DNA of 36,719 nucleotides, from the IMG/VR virus record IMGVR_UViG_3300050343_000009, positions 1-36,719 of that record; one strand, given 5' to 3'. Made by a program: the position numbers and the translations under genes. The stretch's first letter is position 1. Each line of letters starts with the position of its first letter. The notes beneath the pieces were generated by a model. The model was given only the letters and a program-made list of their open reading frames with translations, ran no database searches and had not been told where the DNA came from. Origin of the DNA: a virus. This document shows positions 6,376 through 26,800 of the stretch, one piece after another.

Positions 6376-6974
6376 TAATCTATCTTTCTGCCATCTAGTT
6401 TAGCAGAAACAACTTGAAGTTCGCCACTTATCTCTTGTAGTTTATCCATTACTCCTTGTGGCTGTATCATATTAGGTGCTGCTTTGTTACTAAGTTCTAT
6501 ATCTCCATCGTAATCTATGTATGTAACTTCTACATCTTGTCCTGATACTATAGCTTCAGCTACACGAGGGTATACAAGTTTATATGCATCTCTACTTGAC
6601 CCAATAAATCCATCTTTTTTCACTAAGTTGCTTTCTTGTGAATTACCAAGCAACAAACAACCAGCAGTATTTTCATCTGTATTACCTGAATGCCATAATA
6701 TCCACTTAAAATTAGGTACATCTTGTACCCATATCATACCTTTGTGCCAATCTGCACCGTATCTAGCTAGGTATTTGTTATGAAATCCACCTTCTTCACG
6801 TAGTTTAAGCTTGTATGTACCAGCAGGAATACGTGTTTCACCATATACTTTAACGTCACGTTGTTCATCTTCTAAGGTATAACAAAGAAATGTTTTTTTT
6901 CCATTAGAACTATCAAGTAATATGCCTGATGTTGAATCTTTTCCAGAACTAAATCTTAATACTTCTAATTTCAT
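6375..6974 (-). CDS. DUF5675-family protein
   Basis: A 199-residue protein. Residues 1-150 match the DUF5675 pattern: TLEDEQRDVK at about 33-42, GETRIPAGTYKL near 45-56, and the hallmark ILWHSGNTDENTAGCLLLG near 92-110, where the His, the Asn-Thr and the Cys form a conserved cluster recalling L,D-transpeptidase-like folds. The C-terminal 45 residues (GELQVVSAKLDGRKID at the end) look helical. Family members are common in phages near lysis genes; a cell-wall related role is plausible but not proven. Its ATG overlaps the preceding stop by 4 nt. Confidence 0.75.
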   Translation of the reverse strand: MKLEVLRFSSGKDSTSGILLDSSNGKKTFLCYTLEDEQRDVKVYGETRIPAGTYKLKLREEGGFHNKYLARYGADWHKGMIWVQDVPNFKWILWHSGNTDENTAGCLLLGNSQESNLVKKDGFIGSSRDAYKLVYPRVAEAIVSGQDVEVTYIDYDGDIELSNKAAPNMIQPQGVMDKLQEISGELQVVSAKLDGRKID

Positions 6975-7096
6975 TTCTTTTTAATTTTTTTAATCTTGCC
7001 ATTTTCTGTACGAGCAAACTTATGTGTCTTAGTTTCTCTAATAAGAGTACCATAATAACGTTTACCACCCCACAACCAACTAACTTTTTTAGACAT
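6971..7096 (-). CDS. Small basic protein (41 aa)
   Basis: A 41-codon frame from ATG 7096 to TGA 6973-6971, overlapping the DUF5675 gene by 4 nt and the iron-sulfur-like gene by 8 nt. The peptide begins with MSKKVSWLWGGKRYYG, looks like a small beta-hairpin domain, and ends in a lysine-rich tail. No family is recognised. Overlap with both neighbours is the main support. Confidence 0.5.
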   Translation of the reverse strand: MSKKVSWLWGGKRYYGTLIRETKTHKFARTENGKIKKIKKK

Positions 7097-7271
7097 TGAC
7101 TACTCCTTTATATTTTTTACACCAAGCAAACTCTTGTACTACTGCATTCCATACTGTGCAGTTACCTGAAGGTTGATAAGCATAACAGTTACTACATTGT
7201 TGTTTACCTTTAGGATACAACTGATATGCAGCAGGTAAATTGTTTATATCTTCGTTTTTATTAATTACCAT
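7089..7271 (-). CDS. High-potential iron-sulfur protein (HiPIP)-like protein
   Basis: A 60-residue protein with Cys at 26, 29, 38 and 51 (CSNC, GNC, AWC). The surrounding pattern, Y near 16 and 19, YPKGKQQCSNC, then QPSGNC and FAWCKKYK, is that of HiPIPs, where four Cys hold a buried 4Fe-4S cluster and the last Cys follows a Trp. It lacks a signal peptide and the CxxC to C spacing is short, so it would be a reduced phage form. An alternative is a structural zinc-binding protein. It lies among the late structural and lysis genes; redox or structural function is unknown. Confidence 0.6.
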   Translation of the reverse strand: MVINKNEDINNLPAAYQLYPKGKQQCSNCYAYQPSGNCTVWNAVVQEFAWCKKYKGVVNV

Positions 7272-7555
7272 TTAGTTTTATTCGCCCAATAAGCAGCTGA
7301 CATTTTACCTTTTTTAATATTTTTAGCGTGACGAGCTTTAAAAGATTTTTTTCTAGCTTTATCTTTAGCTGACTTAGGATTTTTACCTGCACCTGACACG
7401 CCTTGTTGACCAAATCTAATTAGTTTAAGATTGTGACCTTCTTGTGCAAGAACCATATGAGATTTTGTTGCATGACCTGGAGTACGTTTAGGTTTATTAA
7501 CACCTTTAAGATTGTGTTTTTTTATTAACGAAGCTTTACGAGATGCATGTGACAT
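7265..7555 (-). CDS. Conserved basic phage protein (96 aa)
   Basis: A 96-residue basic protein. Its second half contains LIRFGQQGVSGAGKNPKS, followed by a KSFKARHAKNI tract and a final SAAYWANKTKW. This block recurs in many marine and T7-like phages and, from memory, is usually annotated only as hypothetical or structural. The pattern is very distinctive, so the family assignment is reasonable, but the function is unknown. It overlaps the iron-sulfur-like gene by 7 nt. Confidence 0.7.
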   Translation of the reverse strand: MSHASRKASLIKKHNLKGVNKPKRTPGHATKSHMVLAQEGHNLKLIRFGQQGVSGAGKNPKSAKDKARKKSFKARHAKNIKKGKMSAAYWANKTKW

Positions 7556-7558
7556 ATA

Positions 7559-7618
7559 CTAGTACTTATAAGTTTTCTTAGGCTTATTCTTCTTCGCAGG
7601 CTTTTTCTTTTTTTGCAT
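7559..7618 (-). CDS. Lysine-rich micropeptide (19 aa)
   Basis: A 19-codon frame from ATG 7618 to TAG 7561-7559, directly upstream of the 96-aa gene. The ATG is preceded by a strong Shine-Dalgarno (AGGAGAAGTT), the best of this part of the window, which argues that it is translated. The peptide is almost entirely Lys and Pro/Thr and ends in TYKY. It might instead act as a leader that sets translation of the next gene. Confidence 0.4.
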   Translation of the reverse strand: MQKKKKPAKKNKPKKTYKY

Positions 7619-7727
7619 AACTTCTCCTAATTATTTTATTGTAATCTATACATCCTATATTACCACAGTACTTAACTTTATTGCGAATAATAGGTTCTCT
7701 ATTACATTGATTACATTGAATTACCAA
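7584..7727 (-). CDS. Small Cys4 protein (47 aa), TTG start
   Basis: A 47-codon frame with cysteines at 5, 8, 21 and 26 (CNQC, then YCGNIGC), a zinc-ribbon spacing. The only start is TTG 7727, 2 nt after the stop of the upstream gene, without a clear Shine-Dalgarno; translation would rely on coupling. It overlaps the 19-aa micropeptide frame. The Cys pattern makes it more likely real than chance. Confidence 0.42.
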   Translation of the reverse strand: MVIQCNQCNREPIIRNKVKYCGNIGCIDYNKIIRRSYAKKEKACEEE

Positions 7728-7729
7728 AT

Positions 7730-8243
7730 TTAATGTCCATGACCAGCTGCTTCTAAGTAAGCTAATCTAGATTTTAAATCGTTAAGCTCCCACATATTAT
7801 TGTTAACACTTTGTATTTGTGTTTCTACTCTAGTTAACGAATCATTAAGGTCTTGATACTCCCACTTTTCTAGTAAGTAATATCTATCTAAATCAAACCC
7901 ACCATCTCTAACCTGTTGCTCTAAGTTATATAAGTTAGCTTGTAATGTAGCCATTTCTTCAGTAAACCTACCAACATTCTGTGCAGCCATCTCTAATGAT
8001 TGTATCTTCTCATACAATACAGCTATATCATTCTGTACATAAGTAGATTCTTTAAGGGTTACGAACTCATACTCAATGTTATTCATCCTGTCATCAATTC
8101 CTGTAAGAGTTATAAGTACAGCGTTAAGAGATTGTATACCAGCACCAACAGAACTCATAAGAGCTATACCAGTTACTATTAAACCTAAATTATCTTTTAC
8201 TTTTTTTAACACTAAGCCACATTACTATTAGAAATTCAATCAT
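7730..8243 (-). CDS. Membrane-anchored coiled-coil protein, frame break near its 5' end
   Basis: The open frame from GTG 8212 gives 160 residues: one hydrophobic segment (GLIVTGIALMSSVGAGI, residues 9-25), then a long heptad-rich coiled coil, ending in GHGH. GTG 8212 has no Shine-Dalgarno. A better start is ATG 8243, which overlaps the upstream stop (TAATG) and begins MIEFLIVMWLSVKK. It falls out of frame at a run of seven A (about 8201-8207) and rejoins the long frame if the run is six A, giving 170 residues. The architecture suits an envelope-associated late protein such as a spanin-like or lysis regulator; function unproven. Confidence 0.6.
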
Positions 8244-8457
8244 TATCCACCAATTTTCCAGATAATTTCTGTAATCTCTGAATCAATATTTTGTATAATG
8301 TTTAATACATCACTAAGTTTGTTGTTTGAATTTATAATTTCTACTTGTAAGTGCTGTAACTTCTTGTTGTAAATCATTAACTGTTTTAAATAACCAACCT
8401 ACAAGTGCAGCTAAACCACCTTGTAGTATTTGATTTAAGATTTATTTTTGCTTCCAT
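8243..8457 (-). pseudogene. Small membrane/coiled-coil protein interrupted by two 1-nt frame breaks
   Basis: ATG 8457 overlaps the upstream stop (TAATG). The frame ends after 23 codons, but two single-base removals (near 8439 and about 8360) give a continuous 70-residue protein: an N-terminal Leu/Gly hydrophobic stretch (LQGGLAALVGWLF) followed by a coiled coil, ending KIGG and TAA at 8245-8243, which overlaps the next ATG. The 215-nt length is exactly two over a codon multiple. Both junctions have the coupling signature, so the gene is real but the sequence or gene is damaged. Confidence 0.55.
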
Positions 8458-8624
8458 TACATACTTAAGCTACCAACAATTAATATAACTGTGGCAACTA
8501 ATCCTAATACTTTATAAAATTCTGATTTATCTAACTTCTCATCTAGCTTTTTATCTATGTCATCTAACTTATCAAATATCATTTGATTCAGTTCTTTCTG
8601 TGTAAAGCCATTAGAAGTTGTCAT
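8457..8624 (-). CDS. Small protein with charged helix and C-terminal membrane segment (55 aa)
   Basis: A 55-codon frame from ATG 8624 to TAA 8459-8457. It has a heptad-like charged N-terminal helix (residues about 7-37, rich in Asp, Lys and Leu) and one C-terminal membrane helix (VLGLVATVILIVGSLSM). It starts and ends in TAATG overlaps. The layout resembles small phage lysis or membrane proteins next to holins. No family is recognised. Confidence 0.6.
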   Translation of the reverse strand: MTTSNGFTQKELNQMIFDKLDDIDKKLDEKLDKSEFYKVLGLVATVILIVGSLSM

Positions 8625-8770
8625 TATGGAAGGTCATCTTGTGTTAAGAAATCCCAGTCTTCATCAAAATCGTGGGCAAGAATTAAAGTTTCAGCCGTTG
8701 CAAGATACTTAATTAACTTGTACATTTCTTTGCAACAATAGCCGACAATAAATCCTATTAAATAATCCAT
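8624..8770 (-). CDS. Small acidic membrane-associated protein (48 aa)
   Basis: A 48-codon frame from ATG 8770 to TAA 8626-8624, joined by TAATG to the next gene. The N-terminus is hydrophobic (MDYLIGFIVGYCCKEMY) and the C-terminus acidic (DFDEDWDFLTQDDLP). There is no Shine-Dalgarno; a TATAAT box lies 7 nt before the ATG, so it may be read from a leaderless message. Function unknown. Confidence 0.52.
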   Translation of the reverse strand: MDYLIGFIVGYCCKEMYKLIKYLATAETLILAHDFDEDWDFLTQDDLP

Positions 8771-8777
8771 AAATTGG

Positions 8778-8783
8778 ATTATA
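8778..8783 (-). promoter_or_regulatory. Candidate -10 box for a leaderless transcript
   Basis: The minus strand carries TATAAT at 8783-8778, and the ATG of the 48-aa gene follows after 7 nt. A transcription start at or beside the A of the ATG would make the message leaderless, which fits the missing Shine-Dalgarno. No clear -35 is seen at 15-19 nt. It lies in the only gap of this part of the operon, between 8771 and 8792. Confidence 0.4.
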
Positions 8784-8792
8784 ACATATTAT

Positions 8793-9095
8793 TTATGCAG
8801 GTTTAGGATTATCTGATTTAACTTGTGCAATGTGGTCAGCCCAAAGAGTTGTGCTATTTACACTATCCCAGTACTGCATATCTAGTTGGTCTTGTACAGA
8901 ACCATAAGCTTCTTGCCTTGCTTGTACATAACCGAACTGTTGTGTATCCCACTTACTGTTAGCCAAGTCTATGATAGCTTGGTCGTAATCAGCAGAGCTA
9001 AACTCTAATCTTTCGTTATTAACTTGTTTGTATAAAGGTTTAGCAGCTTCTATCTCTGCTGTTGCCTCTACTGTTAGTTCTTCTAATGTTGCCAT
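8793..9095 (-). CDS. Tail fibre assembly-like protein
   Basis: A 100-residue acidic helical protein. The C-terminal half has the pattern RQEAYGSVQDQLDMQYWD, then WADHIAQVKSDNPKP, which recurs in small phage proteins next to tail fibre genes (XkdW/tail-fibre-assembly type in some annotations). It lies just downstream of the receptor-binding-like array, the expected place for a fibre chaperone. A strong Shine-Dalgarno (AGGAGAG) precedes the ATG. Whether it is a chaperone or a virion protein is unproven. Confidence 0.62.
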   Translation of the reverse strand: MATLEELTVEATAEIEAAKPLYKQVNNERLEFSSADYDQAIIDLANSKWDTQQFGYVQARQEAYGSVQDQLDMQYWDSVNSTTLWADHIAQVKSDNPKPA

Positions 9096-9118
9096 ATCTC
9101 TCCTATCTTAACATACTT

Positions 9119-9643
9119 TTACTTCTTAAGTCCATATAAACTGAATGTTCCACTTGCAGTATTTTGTCCATCTACATAAATCTGAACACCATCACAAGTT
9201 TGTGCAACTGTATGAACAATTCCACCTATTGTTTGTGCTACATCATTAATTGTACTTGCATAAAAACTAGCACCCTCAATAGTCATAAATGAATATTCAC
9301 TTGCATTGTTAAAGTTAAAAAGATATACAATTCCATTTGATGTTTCTGAACTTGTTGCACTAATAACTGTTCCTGTTAAAAATCCTACTGTTAGATTTGG
9401 AAAAGCTAGATTATCAAAAGTTGTATCTGCTCTAAATCTTTTTCCTGCAACATCATAATTTGCACTTGTATCTGGTGTTCCAGAAGTTGTTACTCTTATT
9501 CTTCCACCACCCTCTGCTGAGCCAACCCAGTTATTATACTTAACCATATACACATCATAAGTGCTATCAATTCCTGTTAAAGTAACACTTGCTACTGCTG
9601 ATGTAACTATTTCTTCATCTATTTTTATTAAGCTACCTGCCAT
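9119..9643 (-). CDS. Receptor-binding-like paralogue, type A (second copy)
   Basis: A 174-residue beta-rich protein. It opens with SLIKIDEEIV, then LTGIDSTYDVYMV, a YLFNFNNASEYSF strand near residues 107-119, IGGIVHTVA near 139, and a final GTFSLYGLKK. These landmarks recur in the gene at 10806-11315 (for example VTGID, LYNFNNPNEYS, VGGNTHTVS), so the two are paired paralogues; the other four genes of the array share the fold more loosely (YDVY-type strand and a final LYG). Jelly-roll-like tip or adhesin modules are a reasonable inference, not a demonstrated function. The ATG overlaps the preceding stop (TAATG). Confidence 0.65.
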   Translation of the reverse strand: MAGSLIKIDEEIVTSAVASVTLTGIDSTYDVYMVKYNNWVGSAEGGGRIRVTTSGTPDTSANYDVAGKRFRADTTFDNLAFPNLTVGFLTGTVISATSSETSNGIVYLFNFNNASEYSFMTIEGASFYASTINDVAQTIGGIVHTVAQTCDGVQIYVDGQNTASGTFSLYGLKK

Positions 9644-10164
9644 TATTTAACTCCATATACACTTGCTCTAAAAAAATCTATATTACTTGCTGTCATATAA
9701 AATTTTATTCCTGTAACATCACTTGTAGATTTTTGTACACCTATCATTTTATAACCTTGTAGTCCATCTCCACTATTTGTAAAAGAACTTTGACTTTTTA
9801 CAAAAGTATAAGAGCTTGTATCTGTTGGATTAAAAACATATAAAGCACATCCCATATTTGCATAAGTAGTTCTTTGGTCTTGTCCACCTATTCCTCTAAA
9901 TTGGGTTGCACCTGTATTTCTTACCTCTGCAAAAGAATAACTAGCCATTATCTGTTGATAGGCATAATCATAATTTGTTGTTATTGAGCTACCACCACTA
10001 TCAATAAATCTTACTTGTCCAAAATTACCAGAGCCATCTGTACTCCAATCACTTATAACAATTTTATATACATCATAATTATCAGTAAAACAATCAGTTA
10101 TTTGAACTGTTGAACTTGCAGTTTGTACATTCACATTTTTTATAAATTGAAGTTTAGTAGCCAT
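9643..10164 (-). CDS. Receptor-binding-like paralogue, type B (second copy)
   Basis: A 173-residue beta-rich protein. It shares FIKNVNV, TDNYDVYKIVISD, QVRFIDSGGSSI, NYDYAYQ, SFAEVRNTG and ALYVFNPTDTSS with the gene at 11315-11827 (where the matching strings are LIKEIPI, TDDFKVFKITMSD, QFRFVNSSGSIV, NYDRANE, SFAEYRGTS and MYVYNPTDSS). The similarity extends over the whole length with only small gaps. It ends RASVYGVK, the array's common C-terminal strand. TAATG overlaps link it to both neighbours. Confidence 0.65.
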   Translation of the reverse strand: MATKLQFIKNVNVQTASSTVQITDCFTDNYDVYKIVISDWSTDGSGNFGQVRFIDSGGSSITTNYDYAYQQIMASYSFAEVRNTGATQFRGIGGQDQRTTYANMGCALYVFNPTDTSSYTFVKSQSSFTNSGDGLQGYKMIGVQKSTSDVTGIKFYMTASNIDFFRASVYGVK

Positions 10165-10805
10165 TATGAGTACCTTATTCCATATAGGGATACTTCAAGT
10201 GTTGCAATATTTCCTAAACCACCTGTTAATCTTATTGCATTATGAGTTTCAGCAGTTGTTTTGACTGCACTAAAAAATCTAAATTCTGCTTCTGGTATGT
10301 TATTCCAAGCAATTTGATGTGATGTCATAAAACTGTATTTGGAACTGTCTAATAAATTATAAAAATAAGCATAACTTCCTGAATGTTCATTACTTCCTGT
10401 TCCTGATTTTCCTAAAACTGCTAATGAAGAACCTGATGTATTTTTACTTTCAGCAAAATTACCATTACTATCCCCAACTTGTCCTGCATATTGATAACCA
10501 CTTGTTATAAATGAAGCACCACCATTATTTGAAAGAGTAGGAACTAATACTTCTGCATCTTGTGTTGAACTAAAATTATTGCTAGTTAAAAAATGAACAT
10601 TATAATTACCTAAATTTGTAAAATCAACAGCAGAAGTAGAACTTGTAACAGTTTGAGTTTCAATTAATTCTAATTGTCCATAGTTAGTCCACTTGTTATC
10701 TGCAATAAGATTGTTTATATCTGCAGGGTCAAACACACCTGTGTTATTTCCAAAGCTCTGCTCTGGTCCTGTGTCTGCTACATAGCCGTATTTGTTACTA
10801 CTCAT
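10164..10805 (-). CDS. Receptor-binding-like paralogue, type C (second copy)
   Basis: A 213-residue protein, longer than types A and B by an N-terminal arm of about 45 residues with a Tyr/Gly/Pro opening (KYGYVADTG, then NTGVFDPADINNL). The arm has a counterpart in the gene at 11829-12437 (GYLGQTPNQ, then NSGVFSVGDAKAL). After it comes LELIETQTVTSS, matching LELIASQTVTGV of the other copy, then AYFYNLLDSSKYSF and a final VSLYGIRYS. The arm may attach the triplet to the tail. It is separated from the type A gene upstream by a TAA directly followed by ATG. Confidence 0.65.
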   Translation of the reverse strand: MSSNKYGYVADTGPEQSFGNNTGVFDPADINNLIADNKWTNYGQLELIETQTVTSSTSAVDFTNLGNYNVHFLTSNNFSSTQDAEVLVPTLSNNGGASFITSGYQYAGQVGDSNGNFAESKNTSGSSLAVLGKSGTGSNEHSGSYAYFYNLLDSSKYSFMTSHQIAWNNIPEAEFRFFSAVKTTAETHNAIRLTGGLGNIATLEVSLYGIRYS

Positions 10806-11315
10806 TTAAACTACTTCCTTATATAAAATTAGTGTACCTGTTGCTAAATTTGTAGTTCCAAAATTTGCATAAATTGAAAAGCCATTTGAAGCACTACTAA
10901 CAGTATGTGTATTTCCACCAACTTGTCCATATAATGATGTTCCACTTATAAGCTGATGTGTTTTTTGCTGAATAGTGCTATATTCATTTGGATTGTTAAA
11001 GTTATATAAAGCAAGCACACCATTTAATCCTCTGTTATCTTCTGCACCAACAGTACCAAAAGCCACTTTGCTACCATTGTTAAAGTATGTATCTGAAAAA
11101 GAGCCATATGCTTTTAAATTCTTAAAAGCATAATCCATATTTGCTGAACTATCTTGTGTACCACCCTTTAACACCCTGCCGTACATTCCTTGTGTTACTG
11201 TAGGTTTTATATTTTCCATAACAATAAAATAAGTATCATCTGTATCAATACCTGTCACATTTAATTGTTGTGAAGTATTGTCTGCAACTGCTTTGTTAAC
11301 TTGTATTAATTTCAT
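10806..11315 (-). CDS. Receptor-binding-like paralogue, type A (first copy)
   Basis: A 169-residue protein. An ATG at 11339 is also in frame, but ATG 11315 is chosen because it overlaps the upstream stop (TAATG) and opens with MKLIQVNKAV, matching the start of the sister gene. It carries NVTGIDTDDTYFIVM, ALYNFNNPNEYS and VGGNTHTVSSASNGFSIY, close to those of the gene at 9119-9643. The C-terminus ends GTLILYKEVV and lacks the usual LYG motif. Beta-rich throughout, without Cys. Confidence 0.65.
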   Translation of the reverse strand: MKLIQVNKAVADNTSQQLNVTGIDTDDTYFIVMENIKPTVTQGMYGRVLKGGTQDSSANMDYAFKNLKAYGSFSDTYFNNGSKVAFGTVGAEDNRGLNGVLALYNFNNPNEYSTIQQKTHQLISGTSLYGQVGGNTHTVSSASNGFSIYANFGTTNLATGTLILYKEVV

Positions 11316-11827
11316 TAATCTATCCTTATCCCATAACATCTAAGCACACCTGTTTGAAATGTTTGTGTGCTATTAGGGTGTAAATGAATACCTGTTATTG
11401 AACTTGTTTCCCTTAAATTACCTATACCATCATTACCTCTAATTAGGTTAGCTGTGTAAGCAGTTGATTGATATGAAGCTTGTGTATGAAATGAACTGTC
11501 TGTTGGATTATATACATACATTTCTGCATTGAAACCCTCTGGACTTGCATTAGTACTCTCAAAACCAAAATAAGTTTGTGATGTTCCCCTGTATTCTGCA
11601 AAACTTCCTGTATCTCTAAAATTTTCATTAGCTCTGTCATAATTTGAAACAACAATACTTCCTGAACTATTAACAAATCTAAATTGAATAACCATAGATG
11701 TATTTGCAGTTATATCTGACATAGTAATTTTAAAAACCTTGAAATCATCTGTGAATATATCATCAGCAGTAAAACCATTAACTCCTGCAATAATTGGAAT
11801 TTCTTTTATAAGTCTTAGGTTACTCAT
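11315..11827 (-). CDS. Receptor-binding-like paralogue, type B (first copy)
   Basis: A 170-residue beta-rich protein paired with the gene at 9643-10164; shared motifs are given there. It opens LRLIKEIPIIAGV and closes VLRCYGIRID. Position in the array: it follows the first type C gene and precedes the first type A gene in transcription order. Nucleotide identity with its sister is visibly low, so the duplication is old or has been under diversifying selection. Its stop overlaps the next ATG. Confidence 0.65.
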   Translation of the reverse strand: MSNLRLIKEIPIIAGVNGFTADDIFTDDFKVFKITMSDITANTSMVIQFRFVNSSGSIVVSNYDRANENFRDTGSFAEYRGTSQTYFGFESTNASPEGFNAEMYVYNPTDSSFHTQASYQSTAYTANLIRGNDGIGNLRETSSITGIHLHPNSTQTFQTGVLRCYGIRID

Positions 11828-11828
11828 A

Positions 11829-12437
11829 CTAAATCTGTTTTATCCCATACAAAGTTGCAGTTACATTGTCATAAGTGACACCACTATATAATCTTATTCC
11901 ATCTACTTTGCTTGCTTGTGGCAAAATTCCAGTTCCAAATTCATCTCTCCAGTTTGCACCAATTTGATTATTGCTATGTTTGTAGCTCATACTGTATCTA
12001 CTTGCATTACCTAAATTATAAAAATACATCTGCCCACCACTTGCATCAGTTGAGTTATATGTTTCTGTTATTGTTCCAATTTGTGAATTAGCAGTACTTT
12101 GTATATCAGTAGCTCCTTGTCCTGCTCTCCTAAATGCATATTTATAAACACTTGCACTCTCTAAAACACCATTTTCATATAATCTAACTGATGTTCCAGT
12201 TGAACTAGCATTATTACCACCTGTTGCAGAAACTTTTATAAGGTGTACATCATATTTATCTTCTTTAATCTCTAAAAAATCTATTACTGAAACACCTGTA
12301 ACAGTCTGACTTGCAATAAGTTCTAATGAGCCACCTAATTGACCAACATCAGTTAACGCTTTAGCATCTCCAACAGAGAATACTCCAGAGTTTTTTACTT
12401 GTTGGTTTGGTGTTTGACCAAGGTAACCATAAGGCAT
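11829..12437 (-). CDS. Receptor-binding-like paralogue, type C (first copy)
   Basis: A 202-residue protein, the first gene of the array in transcription order, with a good Shine-Dalgarno (AAGGAG) 5-6 nt before the ATG. It has the N-terminal arm typical of type C (GYLGQTPNQQVKNSGVF), then GSLELIASQTV, a KYDVHLIKV strand, QMYFYNLGNASRYSM near residue 130, and a final TATLYGIKQI. Its sister lies at 10164-10805. Tail-tip adhesin is the likely role by position and paralogy. Confidence 0.65.
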   Translation of the reverse strand: MPYGYLGQTPNQQVKNSGVFSVGDAKALTDVGQLGGSLELIASQTVTGVSVIDFLEIKEDKYDVHLIKVSATGGNNASSTGTSVRLYENGVLESASVYKYAFRRAGQGATDIQSTANSQIGTITETYNSTDASGGQMYFYNLGNASRYSMSYKHSNNQIGANWRDEFGTGILPQASKVDGIRLYSGVTYDNVTATLYGIKQI

Positions 12438-12447
12438 TGTAACTCCT

Positions 12448-12774
12448 TTAGGTTATTTGTAATACCGATATAAATGCTTCCAAATCGCTTGCTGCATTAG
12501 CTTGGAGTTTAAGTATATCTCCAGCTTCCATTACTATTTTAGAAGTACCTGCTAATTCAATAGATGAATCTGCTGGTACAGTCATAGTGTGTGCTAACTT
12601 AGCATCACCAGATGAAGCATCTACTACTTGTGCAGTTATGTTTGCATCTGCAGCTCCATCTACATTAGTAATCCTAAGTGTTAGAACTATTGATGTAGTA
12701 GAACCAGGTGTTGTATAAGCTGCTGCAAGAGATGTTGTTACATCGTAGTACGCATTTTTAAATGTATTTGCCAT
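12448..12774 (-). CDS. Small virion-type protein (108 aa)
   Basis: A 108-residue beta-rich protein with the pattern of small phage structural proteins: ending strands contain TMTVPADSSIELAG, then KIVMEAGDILKLQA, and a C-terminal SVLQIT. Such proteins, with the VPA and EAGD signatures, are frequent beside fibre genes in marine phages and are usually annotated as structural. Its TAA lies just before the next gene's Shine-Dalgarno. Role at the tail tip or as a fibre accessory is likely but unproven. Confidence 0.6.
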   Translation of the reverse strand: MANTFKNAYYDVTTSLAAAYTTPGSTTSIVLTLRITNVDGAADANITAQVVDASSGDAKLAHTMTVPADSSIELAGTSKIVMEAGDILKLQANAASDLEAFISVLQIT

Positions 12775-12914: not shown

Positions 12915-13304
12915 CTATTCTACCACTTCTTCCCACGCACCTGTATTGTCATTCCAAATATATTCTTTACCATCATCTGGCATAGGTGTTGGGGCTTCCC
13001 AAGTCCAAGTACTTTCATTAAGTAGCCACTTGCTATACGGTTTAGGTGCTATAAAGACATCATTAGTTGCATCATAAGTATATCCTATACCTGCATAGTT
13101 ACCTCTAAAAGGAGTTCCATCTCCACTATGTGCATTAGCACTGGTGTTATAGGAAGTTCTTTTACAAGTCTGTCCTCTAAAATCTCCATACCACGCTTCC
13201 CAGTCAGCAAAGCCATCTGGTAAAGTTTCTGTATTGTCCTCATTAATACCAACAATGACTTCTGTCACTATGTTGTTATCGTTTATAAATGCGTAATGTG
13301 CCAT
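12915..13304 (-). CDS. Conserved phage virion-associated protein (129 aa)
   Basis: A 129-residue protein. It shows MAHYAFINDNNIVTEVIVG at the start, then CKRTSYNT, RGNYAGIGYTYDATNDVF, PKPYSKWLLNE and a Trp-rich end. This ordered pattern (GY-YD, PKPY-SW) is a widespread phage family in cyanophages and pelagiphages, placed near fibre genes; the function is not known. Strong Shine-Dalgarno (AGGAGAG) 3-5 nt before the ATG. Single Cys, not conserved in role. Confidence 0.72.
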   Translation of the reverse strand: MAHYAFINDNNIVTEVIVGINEDNTETLPDGFADWEAWYGDFRGQTCKRTSYNTSANAHSGDGTPFRGNYAGIGYTYDATNDVFIAPKPYSKWLLNESTWTWEAPTPMPDDGKEYIWNDNTGAWEEVVE

Positions 13305-13319
13305 ATCTCTCCTATTATA

Positions 13320-13358
13320 TCAGCTAAAACTGATTGTACCTGTGTTAATTCTTTTCAT
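13320..13358 (-). CDS. 12-aa frame, probable remnant of a fibre C-terminus
   Basis: A TAATG overlap with the glycine-rich fibre opens 12 codons reading MKRINTGTISFS, then TGA 13322-13320. The final residues resemble the last residues of the other glycine-rich fibre (GTGTITFS), so this looks like the tail end of a third fibre copy left after recombination. It may or may not be translated. It is followed by the Shine-Dalgarno of the next gene. Confidence 0.4.
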   Translation of the reverse strand: MKRINTGTISFS

Positions 13359-14452
13359 TATGCCCAACTTACTGACCCTGTTCCTGCTGTAATTATCAAT
13401 ACAGTATCTTCCTCAATACTATCTGTGGTAGCTGTTAAGCCAGTTGTTGATGCTGTATATGTATTTGGGTATCTTAGTATTACTACACCACTACCACCAG
13501 CAGAACCTGCTTGACTATTTAATCTAGCTCCTCCACCACCTCCACCTGTGTTAGCTGTGCCTGTATTATCACTTAAATTTTTTCCATTACCACCACCACC
13601 AAGTCCACCAGCAGCACCATTCCTCTCTCTTTCATCAGCACCACCACCTCCACCACCAGAAAAATAAACATTTCCACTATCTACTTCTCCAACAGAACGA
13701 GATGTTGCAATAGCACTTGTAATTATTGTTGTTGTTAAGCCATCTCCACCTACTTGCAATCCATTACCAGCACTACCATCAGCTCCTACTTCTGATGCTC
13801 CACCACCACCACCACCTACAGAACCATTGTTATTAAAACGACCATTACCACCATTAAAACCTTCTCCAGCATTTCCAGAACCAGGGCTACCCTGTGTGTT
13901 TCCAGCATCTCCACCTGCTTCTCCACCTCCAGAGCCACCATTTCTTCCAGACCTTTGTGTTGCATTAGAAACACCACCACCTGCACCACCACCACCACCA
14001 CCATCAGAAGTATATAAATGAAAAATACTATTGCTACCATCACTACCTCTTGCTTCATTAGTTGCACCACCACTTCCACTAGCACCTACAGTTACTGAAT
14101 AATTAGTGCTAGTTTGTAAAAGAAAACCTGTGTTAGTATCACTACTATTATTATCTAAACTTGTTTTAAGTCCACCAGCACCACCACCACCAGACCTATC
14201 AAATCCACTACCACCACCACCTGCTACAATTAGAAAATCAACAGTCAAACTAGGTGCTGGAGCAAAATTTGTCCAAGCAGAGCCATTATAAAATTGTGGT
14301 TTACTGTCAGTTGTATTGTAAATCATATCACCAGCAACAGAAGTTAAAGCATTCCTAGCAGTTGTAGTGTATGACTTTAATCCAAGTGCATTATCTATTG
14401 CTACATTGTTCTGGTCATTTGTTGAAATCTTATTTGTTTTTAATTCACTCAT
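13358..14452 (-). CDS. Glycine-rich tail fibre/adhesin
   Basis: A 364-residue protein in three parts. Residues 1-68 form a module with NNVAIDNALGLKSYTTTARN and GDMIYNTTDSKPQFYNGSAW, shared with two neighbours. Residues about 75-330 are low complexity, rich in Gly, Ser, Asn and Ala (repeated GGGG and GGAG blocks), starting FLIVAGGGGSG and ending GGSGVVILRYP. The final 30 residues form a beta strand pair ending GTGSVSWA. Glycine-rich domains of this kind occur in phage adhesins, where they bind cell-surface sugars or proteins. It likely acts as a fibre tip. Shine-Dalgarno AGGAC lies 6-7 nt before the ATG. Confidence 0.72.
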   Translation of the reverse strand: MSELKTNKISTNDQNNVAIDNALGLKSYTTTARNALTSVAGDMIYNTTDSKPQFYNGSAWTNFAPAPSLTVDFLIVAGGGGSGFDRSGGGGAGGLKTSLDNNSSDTNTGFLLQTSTNYSVTVGASGSGGATNEARGSDGSNSIFHLYTSDGGGGGGAGGGVSNATQRSGRNGGSGGGEAGGDAGNTQGSPGSGNAGEGFNGGNGRFNNNGSVGGGGGGASEVGADGSAGNGLQVGGDGLTTTIITSAIATSRSVGEVDSGNVYFSGGGGGGADERERNGAAGGLGGGGNGKNLSDNTGTANTGGGGGGARLNSQAGSAGGSGVVILRYPNTYTASTTGLTATTDSIEEDTVLIITAGTGSVSWA

Positions 14453-14458
14453 TATGTC

Positions 14459-15565
14459 CTAACTAAAAGTTATTGTTCCTGTTCCTGCTGTAATTTGTAA
14501 AATTGTATCTGTACCACTTGTACTTGATGCTATTGTTAAACCTGTTTGTGAGTAAGAAGCTACATCTGCTGTTAAGTATCTAAGTATAACTACTCCAGAA
14601 CCTCCATTACCACCAGAGTAAGAAGCATCATCTCCAGAAGCTCCACCTCCACCACCACCTGTGTTAGCTGTTCCTGCATTACCATTACTATTAGCAGAGC
14701 CACCAGCACCACCACCAGCAGAAGCTGTACCTGGTGCACCTGAACCAGTATCACTTCTGATTCCACCACCACCTCCACCACTTCTTAAAACAGCAGAACC
14801 TGTAATTGATGAACTTAAACCTGTACCACCATTACCTCCATCAGAATTAGCATTTCCTAAAGTTTCTCCATTACCACCAACTGAACCTGCACCACCTCCA
14901 CCACCACTTGGACCTCTGTTTATATTATCACTTGTTCCACCTAAACCACCTCTAAAACCTTGTCTTAAAACCCCAACACCAGGTCGTCTTAATGGATTAA
15001 CAAGGTTTGTACTTCCATACAATCCACCAGCACCAGAGCCACCATCTCTATATCCAGCATTTCCTGCGTTTCCATCTCCAGAAGTACCACCACCAACAGC
15101 AATAATATTTTGAAAATAGCTATCTTCACCACCAGGACCACCCGAACCAGAACCAGGAGCACCAGCACCTATTGATACATCATAAGATTTACTTTTAGAA
15201 GCATAAAAATCTGTGTCTGTTGTGTCTAAATTACCACCAGTTTTTTCTCCAGATACATTACAAACATAACCACCAGCTCCACCACCACCACCACCATTAG
15301 CTGTTGCGTAACCTGCTATACCTGCACCACCACCTGCAATCACAAGGTATTCTAAAGCAAAGGCATCTAATCCACCTAAATCTTCCCAAGCTGAACCTGT
15401 ATATACTTGTACTTTATTGTCATCAGAGTTGTATATCGTGTCACCAGCAACTGATGTAAGTCCATTTCTAGCACTTGTGCTGTATGACTTTAAATTTAAA
15501 GCATCATCAATTTTTACATTGTCACCAGAGTATTTACCTATAGCGTTAGTTTCAAGAGTTGACAT
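14459..15565 (-). CDS. Glycine-rich tail fibre/adhesin, paralogue
   Basis: A 368-residue paralogue of the previous gene with the same three parts: an N-terminal module (DNVKIDDALNLKSYSTSARN, then TIYNSDDNKVQVYTGSAW), a long glycine-rich stretch from about residue 75 to 330 (GGGGGG and GGAGG blocks) closed by GGSGVVILRYL, and a C-terminal beta segment ending ITAGTGTITFS. The glycine-rich centres differ in order and spacing, while the two end modules are well kept. Its ATG overlaps the stop of the truncated copy (TAATG). Confidence 0.72.
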   Translation of the reverse strand: MSTLETNAIGKYSGDNVKIDDALNLKSYSTSARNGLTSVAGDTIYNSDDNKVQVYTGSAWEDLGGLDAFALEYLVIAGGGAGIAGYATANGGGGGGAGGYVCNVSGEKTGGNLDTTDTDFYASKSKSYDVSIGAGAPGSGSGGPGGEDSYFQNIIAVGGGTSGDGNAGNAGYRDGGSGAGGLYGSTNLVNPLRRPGVGVLRQGFRGGLGGTSDNINRGPSGGGGGAGSVGGNGETLGNANSDGGNGGTGLSSSITGSAVLRSGGGGGGIRSDTGSGAPGTASAGGGAGGSANSNGNAGTANTGGGGGGASGDDASYSGGNGGSGVVILRYLTADVASYSQTGLTIASSTSGTDTILQITAGTGTITFS

Positions 15566-15756
15566 TATAAATCACTCCAAGCAGAGCCATTGTAAAACTG
15601 TACTTTGCTATCTGTTGTGTTATAGATTATATCTCCAGCAGCACTTGTTAGTGCATTACGCTGTGTAGTTGTATAAGACTTTAAATTTAAAGAGTTTTGC
15701 ATAGCAATGTTATTGCCAGATGCTTTAGATATTGTGTTTACTTTGACAGTTACCAT
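15565..15756 (-). CDS. Stand-alone fibre N-terminal module (63 aa)
   Basis: A 63-residue protein consisting only of the module found at the N-termini of the two glycine-rich fibres: NNIAMQNSLNLKSYTTTQRN, then GDIIYNTTDSKVQFYNGSAW, and a stop after SDL. It is either a truncated fibre copy or a free adaptor to which other fibres attach. It begins and ends in TAATG overlaps, so expression looks normal. It lies directly after the long repeat fibre. Confidence 0.65.
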   Translation of the reverse strand: MVTVKVNTISKASGNNIAMQNSLNLKSYTTTQRNALTSAAGDIIYNTTDSKVQFYNGSAWSDL

Positions 15757-17756
15757 TAGATAACTACCAGTGTACCATTATTCGTTACTGTGCCTGTGAT
15801 TGTAATAGGTCCAGCCATAACTGAACCTGTGTTTGCTGGTACTGTGTATGTAGCAGCTTGTACTTGATTGTGTTGGAAGATACCACCAGCTGTAGATAGA
15901 ACTACACCAGCTTGATTCCAGTCAGCCATATCTGTATTGTCTAACTCGTAGTGTATTCCATTAGCAATACCATCTGTAAGTGTAAAGTCTGAATCTCCAT
16001 CTGATAATGCAGATGCTGAACCTGATGCTATTTGATTAGGATTTATTTTATATACAGTTCCATCTGTAACATCTTCCATAATTAAGAAGTCATTTGCTGT
16101 ATCTGCTGTTATACCTGTACCATCAGCTAAGTTAGATGGGTCTACAGTTAACGATACTGCTCCAGATGTTGCACCTCCAGCTAAACCAGAGTTAGCTGCT
16201 GTATTTACTTCTGTTATATCTCCTGCAGAAACTATATCTGATATTAAAGCTTTTTTTGTACTGTTGTCTGTTACATCTTCTATAAGAATATAATCTGATG
16301 TAGTAGCTGTAACAACACTAGCTGCATTTACATCAACATTCAATGTTACTGTACCAGTTACTCCTCCGCCATCTAGAGCTGTACCAGCAGTAACACCTGT
16401 TATATCTCCAGTTGTTGCTGTTGCCCATTCTACAATACCACCAGATGATACTTGTAAAGTCTGCCCTGATGAACCTATACTTAATTTTGCAAGTGTATTG
16501 CTACCAGAAGCATAAAGAATATCCCCAGTAGTATAACTTGTAAGTCCAGTACCACCATCTGTTTCATCAAGTGTTCCTGTTATTGAACTAGCTGCTAAAT
16601 CTACGGCTAATTCTGTAGATTCTATTACAAGTCCACCATTTGATTTAAGGTCAGTACTAAATGTTGTACCAGTTAAATCTAAACCATCACCAGCTGTGTA
16701 TTCTGTGTTGGTATCTGTAGCTGCAATTGTAATAGCACCCGAACCATTAGTTATAGTTACATTAGTTCCTGCAGTTAATGTAGCTTTAGATAGTGTATTA
16801 CCTGTAGTTTTACCTATAAGTAATTGACCATCTGTGTAAGATGTTTGTCCTGTACCACCTGTAGCAACTGATAATGTTGCTGATAATCCTGAAGCTGTAC
16901 CAGATACATTGCCTGTTACGTTTCCAGTTAAATTTCCAGTTACATCTCCAGTAACATCACCAGTTACATTACCTGTTAGGTTTCCAGTTACGTTTCCTGT
17001 AACTGCACCTGTAACATTACCAGTAACGTTACCAGTTACATTACCTGTTAAATCACCTGTAACGTCTCCTGTAACATCTCCAGTTAAATTACCTGTAACA
17101 TTTCCTGTAACATTACCTGTTAAATTACCTGTTACGTTAACTGTAATAGAACTTGGTAGTCCAACTGTAAATGCTTGTCCTGTTAATCCTACAGTTGCTT
17201 CATTAGCTGTACCTTGTATAGTTAATGCTTGACTATCTAAGTCAACAGCACTTGTAGTAGAACCATCTGTTATATCTAAATCTTGTGCAGTTACGTTACT
17301 ATCTACATAAGCTTTAACAGATTGTTGTGTAACACCTTTAGTTGCGGAGTTTGATGCCATGTTATCTTCATCTAAAAATAATGTTGTATTAACTGCTGTA
17401 CCAGCTTCGTTAATTATTGTATCTACTCTGTCATGTACATCATCAAACATTTCTGCCATAGCAACAAATCTAACTTTAGCTCCAATAGAATGAGCATTTA
17501 ATCCACCACCGTAAGTATCTATGTTTCTAGTAGTTGTTAAGTTAACACCAGATTTTGCTGATACGTAAACATACTCTCTAGTAGAGTCGCTATCTGGGTC
17601 AATTACTAAATAAAATCCTGATGTTCCTGATGAAAAATCACCAATACTTGCTGGGGAAGCTGCAACTGAGACTGTTTGGTCTGACGAGCTTGCAGACAAT
17701 GCAGATATTAATGTTGTTTCGTATGCGTTTTGTAACTGTGTTTCTCTTGCTACCAT
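15756..17756 (-). CDS. Long tail fibre with NVTG-type tandem repeats
   Basis: A 666-residue protein. Residues 1-115 form a globular head-proximal domain (GFYLVIDPDSDSTREYVYVSA, then AHSIGAKVRFVAM) of a type found at phage fibre N-termini. Residues about 207-286 are 20 tandem copies of a four-residue unit (N, D or A)(V or L)(T or S)G, rich in N-x-T/S, likely a stiff beta shaft. Then come GTGQTSYTDGQLLIGKTTGN and similar fibre blocks, and a C-terminal strand region ending TVTNNGTLVVI. It is probably a trimeric fibre; in related podoviruses such a protein is attached to the tail by its N-terminus. TAATG overlaps at both ends. Confidence 0.78.
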   Translation of the reverse strand: MVARETQLQNAYETTLISALSASSSDQTVSVAASPASIGDFSSGTSGFYLVIDPDSDSTREYVYVSAKSGVNLTTTRNIDTYGGGLNAHSIGAKVRFVAMAEMFDDVHDRVDTIINEAGTAVNTTLFLDEDNMASNSATKGVTQQSVKAYVDSNVTAQDLDITDGSTTSAVDLDSQALTIQGTANEATVGLTGQAFTVGLPSSITVNVTGNLTGNVTGNVTGNLTGDVTGDVTGDLTGNVTGNVTGNVTGAVTGNVTGNLTGNVTGDVTGDVTGNLTGNVTGNVSGTASGLSATLSVATGGTGQTSYTDGQLLIGKTTGNTLSKATLTAGTNVTITNGSGAITIAATDTNTEYTAGDGLDLTGTTFSTDLKSNGGLVIESTELAVDLAASSITGTLDETDGGTGLTSYTTGDILYASGSNTLAKLSIGSSGQTLQVSSGGIVEWATATTGDITGVTAGTALDGGGVTGTVTLNVDVNAASVVTATTSDYILIEDVTDNSTKKALISDIVSAGDITEVNTAANSGLAGGATSGAVSLTVDPSNLADGTGITADTANDFLIMEDVTDGTVYKINPNQIASGSASALSDGDSDFTLTDGIANGIHYELDNTDMADWNQAGVVLSTAGGIFQHNQVQAATYTVPANTGSVMAGPITITGTVTNNGTLVVI
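16901..17138 (-). repeat. 12-nt tandem repeat coding for a fibre shaft
   Basis: About 20 in-frame copies of a 12-nt unit code for a four-residue repeat, mainly NVTG, DVTG or NLTG. The copies differ at synonymous and a few replacement positions, so they have aged rather than been copied recently, but the unit length is kept exactly. Copy number could change by slippage and alter the shaft length. Low complexity, in-frame and without spacers, so not a CRISPR array. Confidence 0.85.
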
Positions 17757-23239: not shown

Positions 23240-24256
23240 CTAACTTGTTGTAAGTCCAGTAATTCTGTCACCTTTTTTTCTAGAACCAGTTATAAAAGAA
23301 CTTTCAGACATAGCTTCTCTAGCAGATTTTTCTATTTGTTGTTTAGATTCTATATCTCCAATAGCAGCTTGTTCTAGTGTTTCTATATCTAATGTTCTAC
23401 CAACACCTTTAGCTGATTGCATTATATCTCCAGCTGATTCATATAAAGAAGATGCACTTTGTTGTGTTAAACCAAGTTTTCTTAATTCATCAAACCTACT
23501 AAACGTAGTACTAAAACCTCTAGACGATGCTTCTGCTTGTAACTGTAAAGTTTGTATATCTCCTGTAAGTACTTTGTCTTGTATATCAGGATTAATTAAT
23601 GCACCAAATATTGTAGGTTGGTCTAATGTAATACCGTATTTATCTCTAAATAGTTTTTCTACTTCAGGTATTTGATTAACTACACCTGAATAAACTGTAT
23701 CAATTCGTTGTTGGAACTCTAATCCAGATACTTCTGTTGATATTAATTGTTCAAATTGTTTTTCAAATTCTTTAAAATCTGTAATACCTACTTCAGCTAA
23801 TGTGCTTTTATATGTAGCTTTAGTTGCTAATGCATCTATTTCGCTCATAATTAATGTACCATCTGCTCTTTGTAAATAACCAAACTCTTGTTTCCAAACA
23901 GAAGATTTACGTACTGAACCCATAGCTATATTCGCATCTCCATACTTTGCCCAGCTTTGTGCAAATGTATCTAGTAATGCTGGTGGTAAAAATGAATACA
24001 AAGCATTAGCTTTTTCTAAACCTTTTTGATAACCACTTGTACTTGTACCACTACTTGATTCAGCATAAGCATCTGCTGTGTCTGTACCTGTGTATATTGA
24101 ACCTCCAGGGGCTGACCTTCCTGCATCTGCATCATTAGGATTAGTTGAATAACCTGCAGCTTCTAGTTCTAAAGCACGTTCAGGTGATACTTCATAATAG
24201 TTTTGACCGTCTGTACCTTGTCCAAAACCTAAGTCACTACGATATACTCTAACCAT
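23240..24256 (-). CDS. Internal virion-type helical protein (338 aa)
   Basis: A 338-residue, mainly helical, acidic and Ser-rich protein with an N-terminal part reading NYYEVSPERALELEAAGYSTN and a long helical body with LEQAAIGDIESKQQIEKS near the C-terminus. Similar short helical stretches and charge occur in the two proteins upstream. No family is recognised with certainty; from its place after the giant gene and before the capsid genes it is a candidate internal (ejection) protein. It starts in a TAATG overlap. Confidence 0.55.
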   Translation of the reverse strand: MVRVYRSDLGFGQGTDGQNYYEVSPERALELEAAGYSTNPNDADAGRSAPGGSIYTGTDTADAYAESSSGTSTSGYQKGLEKANALYSFLPPALLDTFAQSWAKYGDANIAMGSVRKSSVWKQEFGYLQRADGTLIMSEIDALATKATYKSTLAEVGITDFKEFEKQFEQLISTEVSGLEFQQRIDTVYSGVVNQIPEVEKLFRDKYGITLDQPTIFGALINPDIQDKVLTGDIQTLQLQAEASSRGFSTTFSRFDELRKLGLTQQSASSLYESAGDIMQSAKGVGRTLDIETLEQAAIGDIESKQQIEKSAREAMSESSFITGSRKKGDRITGLTTS

Positions 24257-25494
24257 TATCTACCTTCCACGTATTGTTGAGATTCTATAATACCAGTACC
24301 TAACTGTGACATCATAGCTGTATTAAGTTCTGATACAACTTTAGGTATATTTCTATTAAGACCTTCTTGTCTAAGATAACCATTTTCTTTTGCTGTATCA
24401 TTCATTCTTATAATTGTATCTAATACATCATCATTTACAGATATATCTACACCCCATATATTTTTAATTGCTTGTTTTTTTGCAATTAATATATTTTCCC
24501 AAGGAATGTTTTCATCATACATTTGATACGTAGCAAATCTTTTAGCTTTCAAATCAGAAATAAACTGTGCTTGATAGTTACCAATGTTACGTAATTTACC
24601 ACCTTCTTCTTGTATGTTTATTGTACCGTGTTGACTAGATGGTAAATATTTATCCATTAACTGTTGTGCTAAATCTTCACCTGTTGTAATTTTAGTAACT
24701 GATTTACCTTCTAATACACCAAGTAATCCTGTATCTATATTGTAAGGTGAGTAATCATCAGTAGCTGCATTAATTTGATTTACTACTTTTGTTTGTGTCC
24801 ATACACCATTAGCCCATTGTCTAGCCATGTATTGTGCAGCTTCTTCTGGTATTTCAGCACCATTTTTTAATAATGTTGCATTAACTACATCTAAATAATT
24901 TAAATAATTACGTTCATATTGTATAGGGTCAGTACGTTTAGTATCATAAGAATTAATCATTGATTTTGTATATCCCATACCAGATATAAGTTGTCCGTAC
25001 TCATCACTATTTTTAAAGTTTTGATAACCAAGTGATACATTACCATCAGCTAATAAAACATATTTATTTAAAGTATCTACATAATTTGCGTTGTTCCACC
25101 AAGGTGCATCACTTTTTAAACTAGCTACTGCTTCGTCAAATCCAACTAATACATCTACAGCATCAGCATCTATAAAAGATTCTATGTTGCTTATATTTCT
25201 AGGAACACTTACTAATTTATCATCTTTGTAAAAACCACTAAGAAATGCTTCGTTAGTTGTAGTTATAAGAATACCTTGACTTTGCATGTCTTTACGTGCA
25301 TCTTTTTCTGATTGTGTTACACGATTGTTGTCTCCTGTAAAAGTTTGATAAGAAGATAAATCAGATAACTTAGCATTATCTGGTGTATCAAATACATAAA
25401 TTGCATCACCTTTATCTACAATAATTTTGTATTCTTTAGTATCTTCTATGTATATAATTCCTGAACCATCAGGGCCTTTTACTTCATATGACAT
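24256..25494 (-). CDS. Virion-type hypothetical protein (412 aa)
   Basis: A 412-residue mixed helical protein with an N-terminal beta region (EVKGPDGSGIIYIEDTKEYK), a large helical body and a Gln-rich end. No domain is recognised. Its position between the ejection-type proteins and the capsid genes, and TAATG overlaps on both sides, suggest a minor virion protein, perhaps an internal core or ejection component as with T7 gp14-gp16. Methionine and Asn content is high. Confidence 0.52.
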   Translation of the reverse strand: MSYEVKGPDGSGIIYIEDTKEYKIIVDKGDAIYVFDTPDNAKLSDLSSYQTFTGDNNRVTQSEKDARKDMQSQGILITTTNEAFLSGFYKDDKLVSVPRNISNIESFIDADAVDVLVGFDEAVASLKSDAPWWNNANYVDTLNKYVLLADGNVSLGYQNFKNSDEYGQLISGMGYTKSMINSYDTKRTDPIQYERNYLNYLDVVNATLLKNGAEIPEEAAQYMARQWANGVWTQTKVVNQINAATDDYSPYNIDTGLLGVLEGKSVTKITTGEDLAQQLMDKYLPSSQHGTINIQEEGGKLRNIGNYQAQFISDLKAKRFATYQMYDENIPWENILIAKKQAIKNIWGVDISVNDDVLDTIIRMNDTAKENGYLRQEGLNRNIPKVVSELNTAMMSQLGTGIIESQQYVEGR

Positions 25495-25616
25495 TAATAA
25501 CTTCCTAACATAAATTTAATGCCTGCATATGATTTTTGTAACAAATTTTGATACATAATTTTTTCAGTATCTTCAACTTGTTCAACTTCTTCTTTAACAA
25601 CTTCTTTTTCTTCCAT
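25494..25616 (-). CDS. Small acidic protein (40 aa)
   Basis: A 40-codon frame from ATG 25616 to TAA 25496-25494, joined by TAATG overlaps to the genes on both sides. The first half is Glu/Lys/Val-rich (MEEKEVVKEEVEQVEDTEK) and helical, the rest amphipathic (KSYAGIKFMLGSY). It fills a gap between two large virion genes. Function unknown; a small core peptide or assembly factor is possible. Confidence 0.55.
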   Translation of the reverse strand: MEEKEVVKEEVEQVEDTEKIMYQNLLQKSYAGIKFMLGSY

Positions 25617-26800
25617 TAAGAACCTCCAAACATAACACTAAGTAATTGATTTTGATAATCTTTTTTACGTTGACCTGCTTCAAATACATCTATTTCTTTT
25701 TGCATTTGTGATTCAAAGTCTTCTTCAAATATTTCTTGTTGTGTTTGTGTAGAAAATCTTGATAAATCAGGCCCTGTAGCTGTACTTATAGTATCAGTAC
25801 TAGACATTTTATCTTGTACAAATTTTGCATCATCAAATGCTCTACTTGCTGCTATTGATTGTGCATATTCTGTAGAATAACTACTAGCTAAATTTGTAGC
25901 CCATACATCTAATTCTTCTGATGTAGGTTTTCTACCAATTTTTGCATAGAAATATGCTTCGGTATAATCTTCTAATTCGTTTTCACTAGGAGGTATATAC
26001 CTTTGTGCCATTTCTTTTTCTTGTAAACCACGTTGAAAGTCTTCTTCAGCTTGTCCAGTTCTAATAAATTCTTTTAAACCGTAATTAAATAAATTACGTT
26101 CAAAACTAGCATCTTGTTCTCTTTGTTGTACAGATGTAAAATAAACAGGTTTTTCTTTTCTTATTGCATCTCTTACTTCTGCATTAGTAACAATATTATT
26201 ATCTATGTAATTCATAACTTCAGTTATTTTATTTTGTAACTTTTCACTTTGTTGACCTTCTGTGCCAGCAAAATAACCTTGTTCAACAATTCCTGAATCG
26301 TATAAGTATTTCTGAAAAGCTGTTATTTCATTAGGTGTAGCGTACAAGTTTATAATTTCATCCCATGCAACGTTTTCAAAAAAAGATTCTTGTCTAACTT
26401 CTTCACCAGATTCTGTAAATCTTAAAGGTGAATCTGAATCTGATTGTGCGTTTGCTATATCTTTTAACTGTTCTACAGTAAACATTTGTCCAGTTACATC
26501 TGATATAGTCTGTGCTGCTTGTACTAAGTTATTACCTGCACCTTGTCCTGTTAACTGTGCATTTTTAATATCAATAGCACTTTTTAATAAGACTTTAAAT
26601 GTATCTATATTTTTAGTGTTATATGCATCTTTAATTGCATTTAATGTATTTTCATCTTCAAAATAAACATTGTCTGATAATGATGCTAAAACACTAGCAA
26701 CATTAAAACTTTCTCCTTCTATACCTAATAATGACGCGTATTCTTTTAACGCATCTTCAAATTCGGTAAGAGTTCCTTTTTCTTTTATATATTCAACCAT
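25616..26800 (-). CDS. Helical internal/ejection-type protein (394 aa)
   Basis: A 394-residue strongly helical, Gln- and Glu-rich protein, without Cys and with few Trp, e.g. RAFDDAKFVQDKMSS and NEITAFQKYLYD. Such composition fits internal virion proteins of podoviruses. It follows the giant gene and precedes two other virion-type genes. A transglycosylase motif is not seen. Its stop overlaps the ATG of the 40-aa gene (TAATG). The ATG lies 1 nt after the stop of the upstream ORF. Confidence 0.55.
   Translation of the reverse strand: MVEYIKEKGTLTEFEDALKEYASLLGIEGESFNVASVLASLSDNVYFEDENTLNAIKDAYNTKNIDTFKVLLKSAIDIKNAQLTGQGAGNNLVQAAQTISDVTGQMFTVEQLKDIANAQSDSDSPLRFTESGEEVRQESFFENVAWDEIINLYATPNEITAFQKYLYDSGIVEQGYFAGTEGQQSEKLQNKITEVMNYIDNNIVTNAEVRDAIRKEKPVYFTSVQQREQDASFERNLFNYGLKEFIRTGQAEEDFQRGLQEKEMAQRYIPPSENELEDYTEAYFYAKIGRKPTSEELDVWATNLASSYSTEYAQSIAASRAFDDAKFVQDKMSSTDTISTATGPDLSRFSTQTQQEIFEEDFESQMQKEIDVFEAGQRKKDYQNQLLSVMFGGS

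Follow-up and report, generated by a model that had tools for sequence, protein, structure and literature searches.

Phage adhesins are nearly always regarded as homo-oligomers. The closest described parallel to the locus analyzed here comes from the virophage DSLV2, whose three consecutive paralogous tail proteins (196, 205, and 247 amino acids) are reported as a 1:1:1 heterotrimer with a receptor-binding region (PMC12724248, 2025). In DSLV2 and other members of Aquatic Virophage 1, the three genes share one orientation and fall into position-specific clades that are conserved across viruses (PMC12724248). The DSLV2 proteins carry the collar domain PF07484 and a gp37-tip-like needle, and the accessible text mentions neither an arm confined to a single subunit nor a second set of genes (PMC12724248).

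The window studied here is the complete virus record of 36,719 bases, in which two cassettes of three genes, termed C, B, and A, follow one another (Table 1). Like the DSLV2 trio, each cassette consists of three consecutive paralogs that form position-specific clades, judging from the tree and the gene order. With E values up to 10 allowed, PF07484 matched none of the six proteins, and at 0.001 it matched none of 71 C members, which places the window cassette outside the DSLV2 family; if the heterotrimer model presented below is right, the two would nevertheless share a principle. The initial annotation's remark that it knew of no described heteromeric triplet of this kind is out of date: with the DSLV2 1:1:1 heterotrimer published, albeit from an unrelated collar-domain family, a heteromer of three paralogs is not a wholly new concept. 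What would be new is the other fold, the occurrence in tailed phages, the dedicated anchored subunit, the exchangeable docking arm, and the paired second set.

Several further proteins resemble parts of the cassette. Pelagibacter phage HTVC035P (MW273923) encodes, among its tail-region genes, gp39, which has a homologous domain (profile A, E 9e-10) and an N-terminal extension; it is a distant lone homolog, a single gene without partners of the other types. Adhesins of the Gly_rich_2 family (PF21722) are single polypeptides with a receptor domain unrelated to C, B, and A, and several of them, located beside or between cassettes, carry a C-type arm. Lectin-like proteins in BFVD (e.g., A0A516KYE9 and A0A6J5T8W1) have the same fold, the lowest E value being 6e-23; A2 and A0A516KYE9 share 44% identity, and A0A516KYD7, A0A516KYE7, and A0A516KYE9 may constitute another such triple. 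At E ≤0.001, the phrog_14820 profile matches 41 of 71 A members and 20 of 71 C members; A2 and C2 of the window fall short of this threshold. These phrog_14820 and BFVD relatives are unnamed, unannotated, or parts of longer fibers, and we found no description of an obligate three-paralog cassette for them. In marine phages, the genes for host recognition, lectin-like and C1q-like genes among them, are known to rank with the most variable (PMC3909814).

The six-gene array and its spread among viral contigs

The initial annotation had described a C-B-A-C-B-A array of six adjoining open reading frames on the minus strand at 9119-12437, falling into three distantly related pairs, and each of these elements was recovered. 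The products are 169-213 residues long; for A1, the start at 11315 was preferred over the upstream ATG because it agrees better with the B1 overlap. BLASTP gave C1-C2 (E 1e-12, 32%), B1-B2 (5e-21, 32%), and A1-A2 (4e-19, 33%) as mutual best matches, and shuffle Z-scores agree with this pairing (15.7, 25, and 24, respectively, vs 3-13 for pairs across types). The two next genes, taken as controls, showed no similarity to the six (shuffle |Z| <1.5). Profile comparison links the types to one another (A-C, E 3e-34; A-B, E 5e-32), and we regard the derivation of A, B, and C from a common origin, as one superfamily, as certain for practical purposes. Pfam gave no family for any of the six, and no PHROG matched them at E ≤0.001. 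A relative of C1 in another contig (L007) shares 89% identity with it.

Table 1. Features of the window discussed in the text
Feature	Coordinates	Strand	Description
C1	11829..12437	-	202 aa; putative anchored subunit of cassette 1; arm and lectin-like sandwich; mutual best match with C2
C1 arm	about residues 1-36	-	motif YLGQTPNQ-V-NSGVFSV
B1	11315..11827	-	170 aa; cassette-1 subunit without arm; within the cassette-1 B clade
A1	10806..11315	-	169 aa (177 from ATG at 11339); cassette-1 subunit without arm
C2	10164..10805	-	213 aa; putative anchored subunit of cassette 2, with arm
C2 arm	10674..10805	-	about first 43-44 residues; EQSFGNNTGVFDPADINNL...KWTNYG; module also on glycine-rich adhesins
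B2	9643..10164	-	173 aa; cassette-2 subunit without arm; start overlaps C2 stop by 1 base
A2	9119..9643	-	174 aa; cassette-2 subunit without arm; start overlaps B2 stop by 1 base
100-aa conserved gene	8793..9095	-	phrog_9114; directly after the cassettes
Glycine-rich adhesin genes	13358-14452, 14459-15565	-	two adjoining genes (phrog_2295, Gly_rich_2); upstream of the cassettes

Relatives were collected from IMG/VR with B2, C1, A2, B1, an A-family alignment, and an arm alignment as queries; since the searches with B, C, and the arm do not depend on A, the outcome is no artifact of A-only searching. After contained copies were removed, 140 contigs holding the family remained, mostly from IMG/VR. 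All complete arrays read either C-B-A (n = 53) or C-B-A-C-B-A (n = 50), extending the proposed gene order beyond the window; no violation of the order, third set, or extra A or B was found among these 103 arrays or in the 140 contigs. Thirty-five of the 36 incomplete arrays lie at or almost at a contig end, and the sole exception (L069), which has an unrelated opposite-strand open reading frame just upstream, looks like a faulty assembly join. Junctions overlap or are at most 4 bases apart in 100% (C-B) and 96% (B-A) of cases, the overlaps being of 1 or 4 bases and the remainder gaps of a few bases, a spacing that fits translational coupling of C, B, and A. Fused A-B, B-C, or C-B-A proteins, sought as a sign of contact, were absent from the loci. 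Between sets, the only insertions are arm-bearing glycine-rich genes, in two contigs (L090 and L198); at 1687-2903 of L198, between two C-B-A sets, such a gene is accompanied by a homolog of window 12915-13304.

The structural genes that neighbor the cassettes match those of the window in some contigs and not in others, so that the module appears to be mobile between phage lineages. Its carriers are apparently many uncultured, marine bacterial viruses. Among cultured phages, neither B2 in tblastn nor the entire region in blastn gave a match, and we found none with the cassette, the search with A2 yielding HTVC035P only. One complete C-B-A-C-B-A array, together with the downstream 100-aa gene, occupies 6842-10173 of a contig (L199) filed under the Candidatus Actinomarina assembly AG-919-G14, which has a single-cell style name and is titled a MAG. 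Candidatus Actinomarina is thus a possible host of one lineage; an error of binning or capture is also conceivable.

In a tree of 313 sequences, single branches set off A (support 99) and C (support 96) from the rest, and for B the separation takes just one extra change. The cassette-1 B clade (support 99) has 36 rows, 33 from cassette 1 (33/34) and three from cassette 2, and the B proteins of single-cassette phages are of the cassette-2 type, split from cassette-1 B at 99% support. The duplication consequently predates this genome, and a recent local duplication was ruled out by the age of this split. The A and C trees show the same tendency of cassette 1 vs cassette 2 and single sets, with more mixing than for B. 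One old duplication, followed by exchange, would explain these trees; the duplication of a whole three-gene unit, as initially annotated, is thereby supported, as an event that is old and common to dozens of phages, not local. Distance matrices of A, B, and C are correlated in cassette 1 (r 0.45-0.60), barely so in cassette 2 (r 0.13-0.16), and to an uneven degree in single sets (0.04-0.32). We read the cassette-2 values as a sign that single genes may be freely exchanged there while their type is kept, with uneven sampling depth as a possible contributor.

Fold, N-terminal arm, and subunit-specific residues

AlphaFold2 monomer models of C2 (pLDDT 87 overall, mostly >90 in the sandwich and low in the arm) and A2 (pLDDT 92.5) are beta sandwiches, and the homology of B to A implies the same fold for B. 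The C2 model matched the GH32 C-terminal domain (Z 8.7), galectin (Z 6.7), and concanavalin A (Z 6.6), and A2 matched GH32 C-terminal, galectin, and legume-lectin sandwiches at Z 7.6 and 6.7; these are middling values, and those below 8 may reflect no more than a common arrangement. We take the range of Z 6-9 to suggest a lectin-like arrangement, with no family assignment. Solved structures held no credible sequence match to the window proteins, and no viral lectin of known function was prominent in the structure searches, an absence that carries no weight. The fold search with C2 and A2 found this domain frequently in predicted viral proteins, either stand-alone or inside longer fibers.

Across the loci, an N-terminal extension is present on C only, and never on A or B. 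This arm has three main forms, each conserved while the sandwich varies: a short arm (MPLGAARFGLLGGVADLG) occurs in most single-cassette phages, and of the long arms, one form is found in cassette 1 and a different one in cassette 2. Residues 1-42 of the C2 arm recur with 100% identity at the N-terminus of a glycine-rich adhesin of 326 residues in contig L053, and arms related to those of C also open glycine-rich adhesins in L012, L075, L090, and L198. Versions of the short arm are found on glycine-rich adhesins in L064 and L067, with weak E-values and a clear motif. Because the arm recurs, within one tail region, on receptor domains that are unrelated to each other, it is best read as an address; by this comparison of sequences, it looks like a docking address for the tail.

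Base and tip poles of the sandwich were derived from the alternation of strands and not from model coordinates. Provided that successive strands run in opposite directions, the pole with both termini is the conserved one in each of A, B, and C, and the far pole is hypervariable, with loops that differ accordingly. The within-strand gradient of conservation gave sign-flip p-values of 0.0007 (A), 0.0002 (B), and 0.0005 (C), which are somewhat optimistic, as the pole directions were picked after loop conservation was known. Residues that define the type lie close to the termini. At position 116 of the common alignment (A2 numbering), one of the sites that differ between types and are nearly invariant within each, Glu is found in 128/130 A sequences, Ser in 104/117 B, and Lys in 91/100 C. 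The two cassettes are told apart by residues that, in each of the three subunits, are concentrated toward the conserved pole (mean height 0.17-0.26 vs 0.48). Position 10 changes in concert across the subunits: most cassette-1 sets have E/E/T for C/B/A, and T/S/E prevails in cassette 2 and in single sets, cassette 1 of the window being an exception with S/E/K. Such patterns agree with a hetero-assembly that follows a cassette-specific code, although, as correlations spanning two old clades, they are uncontrolled for ancestry. Inter-subunit mutual information, with shuffles made within states, gave almost nothing above the null beyond the cassette-class signatures. No pair was robust; B3-C4 passed with the full set, B3-C173 did so marginally with one subset, and column B3 adjoins an alignment gap.

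Proposed assembly and competing explanations

We propose that C, B, and A are paralogous lectin-like sandwich subunits of one receptor-binding head of the tail, forming a pseudo-threefold heterotrimer, probably 1:1:1. C alone would plug the head into the tail through its N-terminal arm; B and A, which have no anchor, would join C through the conserved, type-specific base near their termini. At the opposite pole, the hypervariable loops of all three would touch the host surface, probably its glycans. We infer the stoichiometry, the docking partner, and the binding of glycans, as we do the assembly itself; a heteromeric C:B:A tail head anchored by C is the likeliest arrangement, and we hold it with moderate confidence. 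The fixed gene order, the tight junctions, the arm on C only, its sharing with glycine-rich adhesins, the lectin-like fold, position 116, the conservation gradient from base to tip, the clustering of cassette-specific residues at the base, and the concerted change at position 10 were counted in its favor. The near absence of inter-subunit coupling, the middling fold matches, and the derivation of the poles from strand alternation count against it. The receptor-binding role given to these genes by the initial annotation gains support that is indirect, from the lectin-like fold, the hypervariable pole, the arm shared with adhesins, and the location after tail-fiber genes.

The same observations can be ordered differently. 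Most phage adhesins are homotrimers, and C might likewise form an anchored homotrimer, with homotrimers of B and A stacked on C or on each other as consecutive discs of a single fiber tip. HTVC035P gp39 would suit such units, since it is single-copy, is extended at its N-terminus, and lacks partners of types A, B, and C. The exchange of single genes in cassette 2 would suit them too; the near-uncorrelated distances there fit free subunit exchange and are not expected under tight co-adaptation, and the constant gene order could mirror the order of assembly. However, opposite or different residues at one homologous position are most easily explained by mutual contact of homologous faces, and A, B, and C are equally small, with A and B anchorless; we consider stacked homo-oligomers the main rival but rather unlikely. 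That the three are separate adhesins of distinct specificity, attached individually and held together by the operon only, would agree with the hypervariable pole that each type has of its own and with the several adhesins that phages commonly carry. This is improbable, since A and B lack the attachment segment, and strictly one of each type is found in the 103 complete arrays, with an extra A or B in no contig. Small sandwich domains are also found as capsid decoration, and the small gene just upstream (12448-12774) resembles by eye gp45 of HTVC035P, a putative virion structural protein; yet the C arm is shared with glycine-rich adhesins and the site follows tail-fiber-like genes, so that decoration of the head, or another place in the virion outside the tail, seems very improbable.

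If the C:B:A head is correct, the window phage would have two of them, differing in arms and identity residues; given these differences of arm and base, the two cassettes probably dock at different sites and do not mix. That the two sets serve two receptors is speculation. More tentatively still, and as a suggestion that may well not hold in full, there could be a widespread class of phages with two orthogonal C:B:A lectin heads, each having its own docking address and base code, in which tips are swapped independently to give a combinatorial host range. A trio of paralogs kept in fixed order, with a single anchored member, common in uncultured phages and often doubled, would imply that receptor-binding heads can be asymmetric and combinatorial. 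The cassette family offers a search profile for proteins now labeled hypothetical, and the shared docking arm a sequence handle for spotting adhesins in uncultured phages.

Neighboring genes in the window

The window encodes a major capsid protein of the SU10 type. Family searches recognized no terminase or portal in the window; within 23240-26800, the genes at 25616-26800 and 24256-25494 are candidates for these by position only. For the 1749-residue protein encoded at 27289-32538, neither Pfam nor PHROG gave a match at the thresholds applied. A tail protein, encoded at 15756-17756, is a candidate docking partner of the C arm. Homologs of the 100-aa gene that follows the cassettes are present in 121 loci, with 45-91% identity among those listed; its product is possibly an assembly helper, which is a guess. 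The two glycine-rich adhesin genes upstream probably belong to the same late operon as the cassettes, and the N-termini of their products are alike and different from the C arms.
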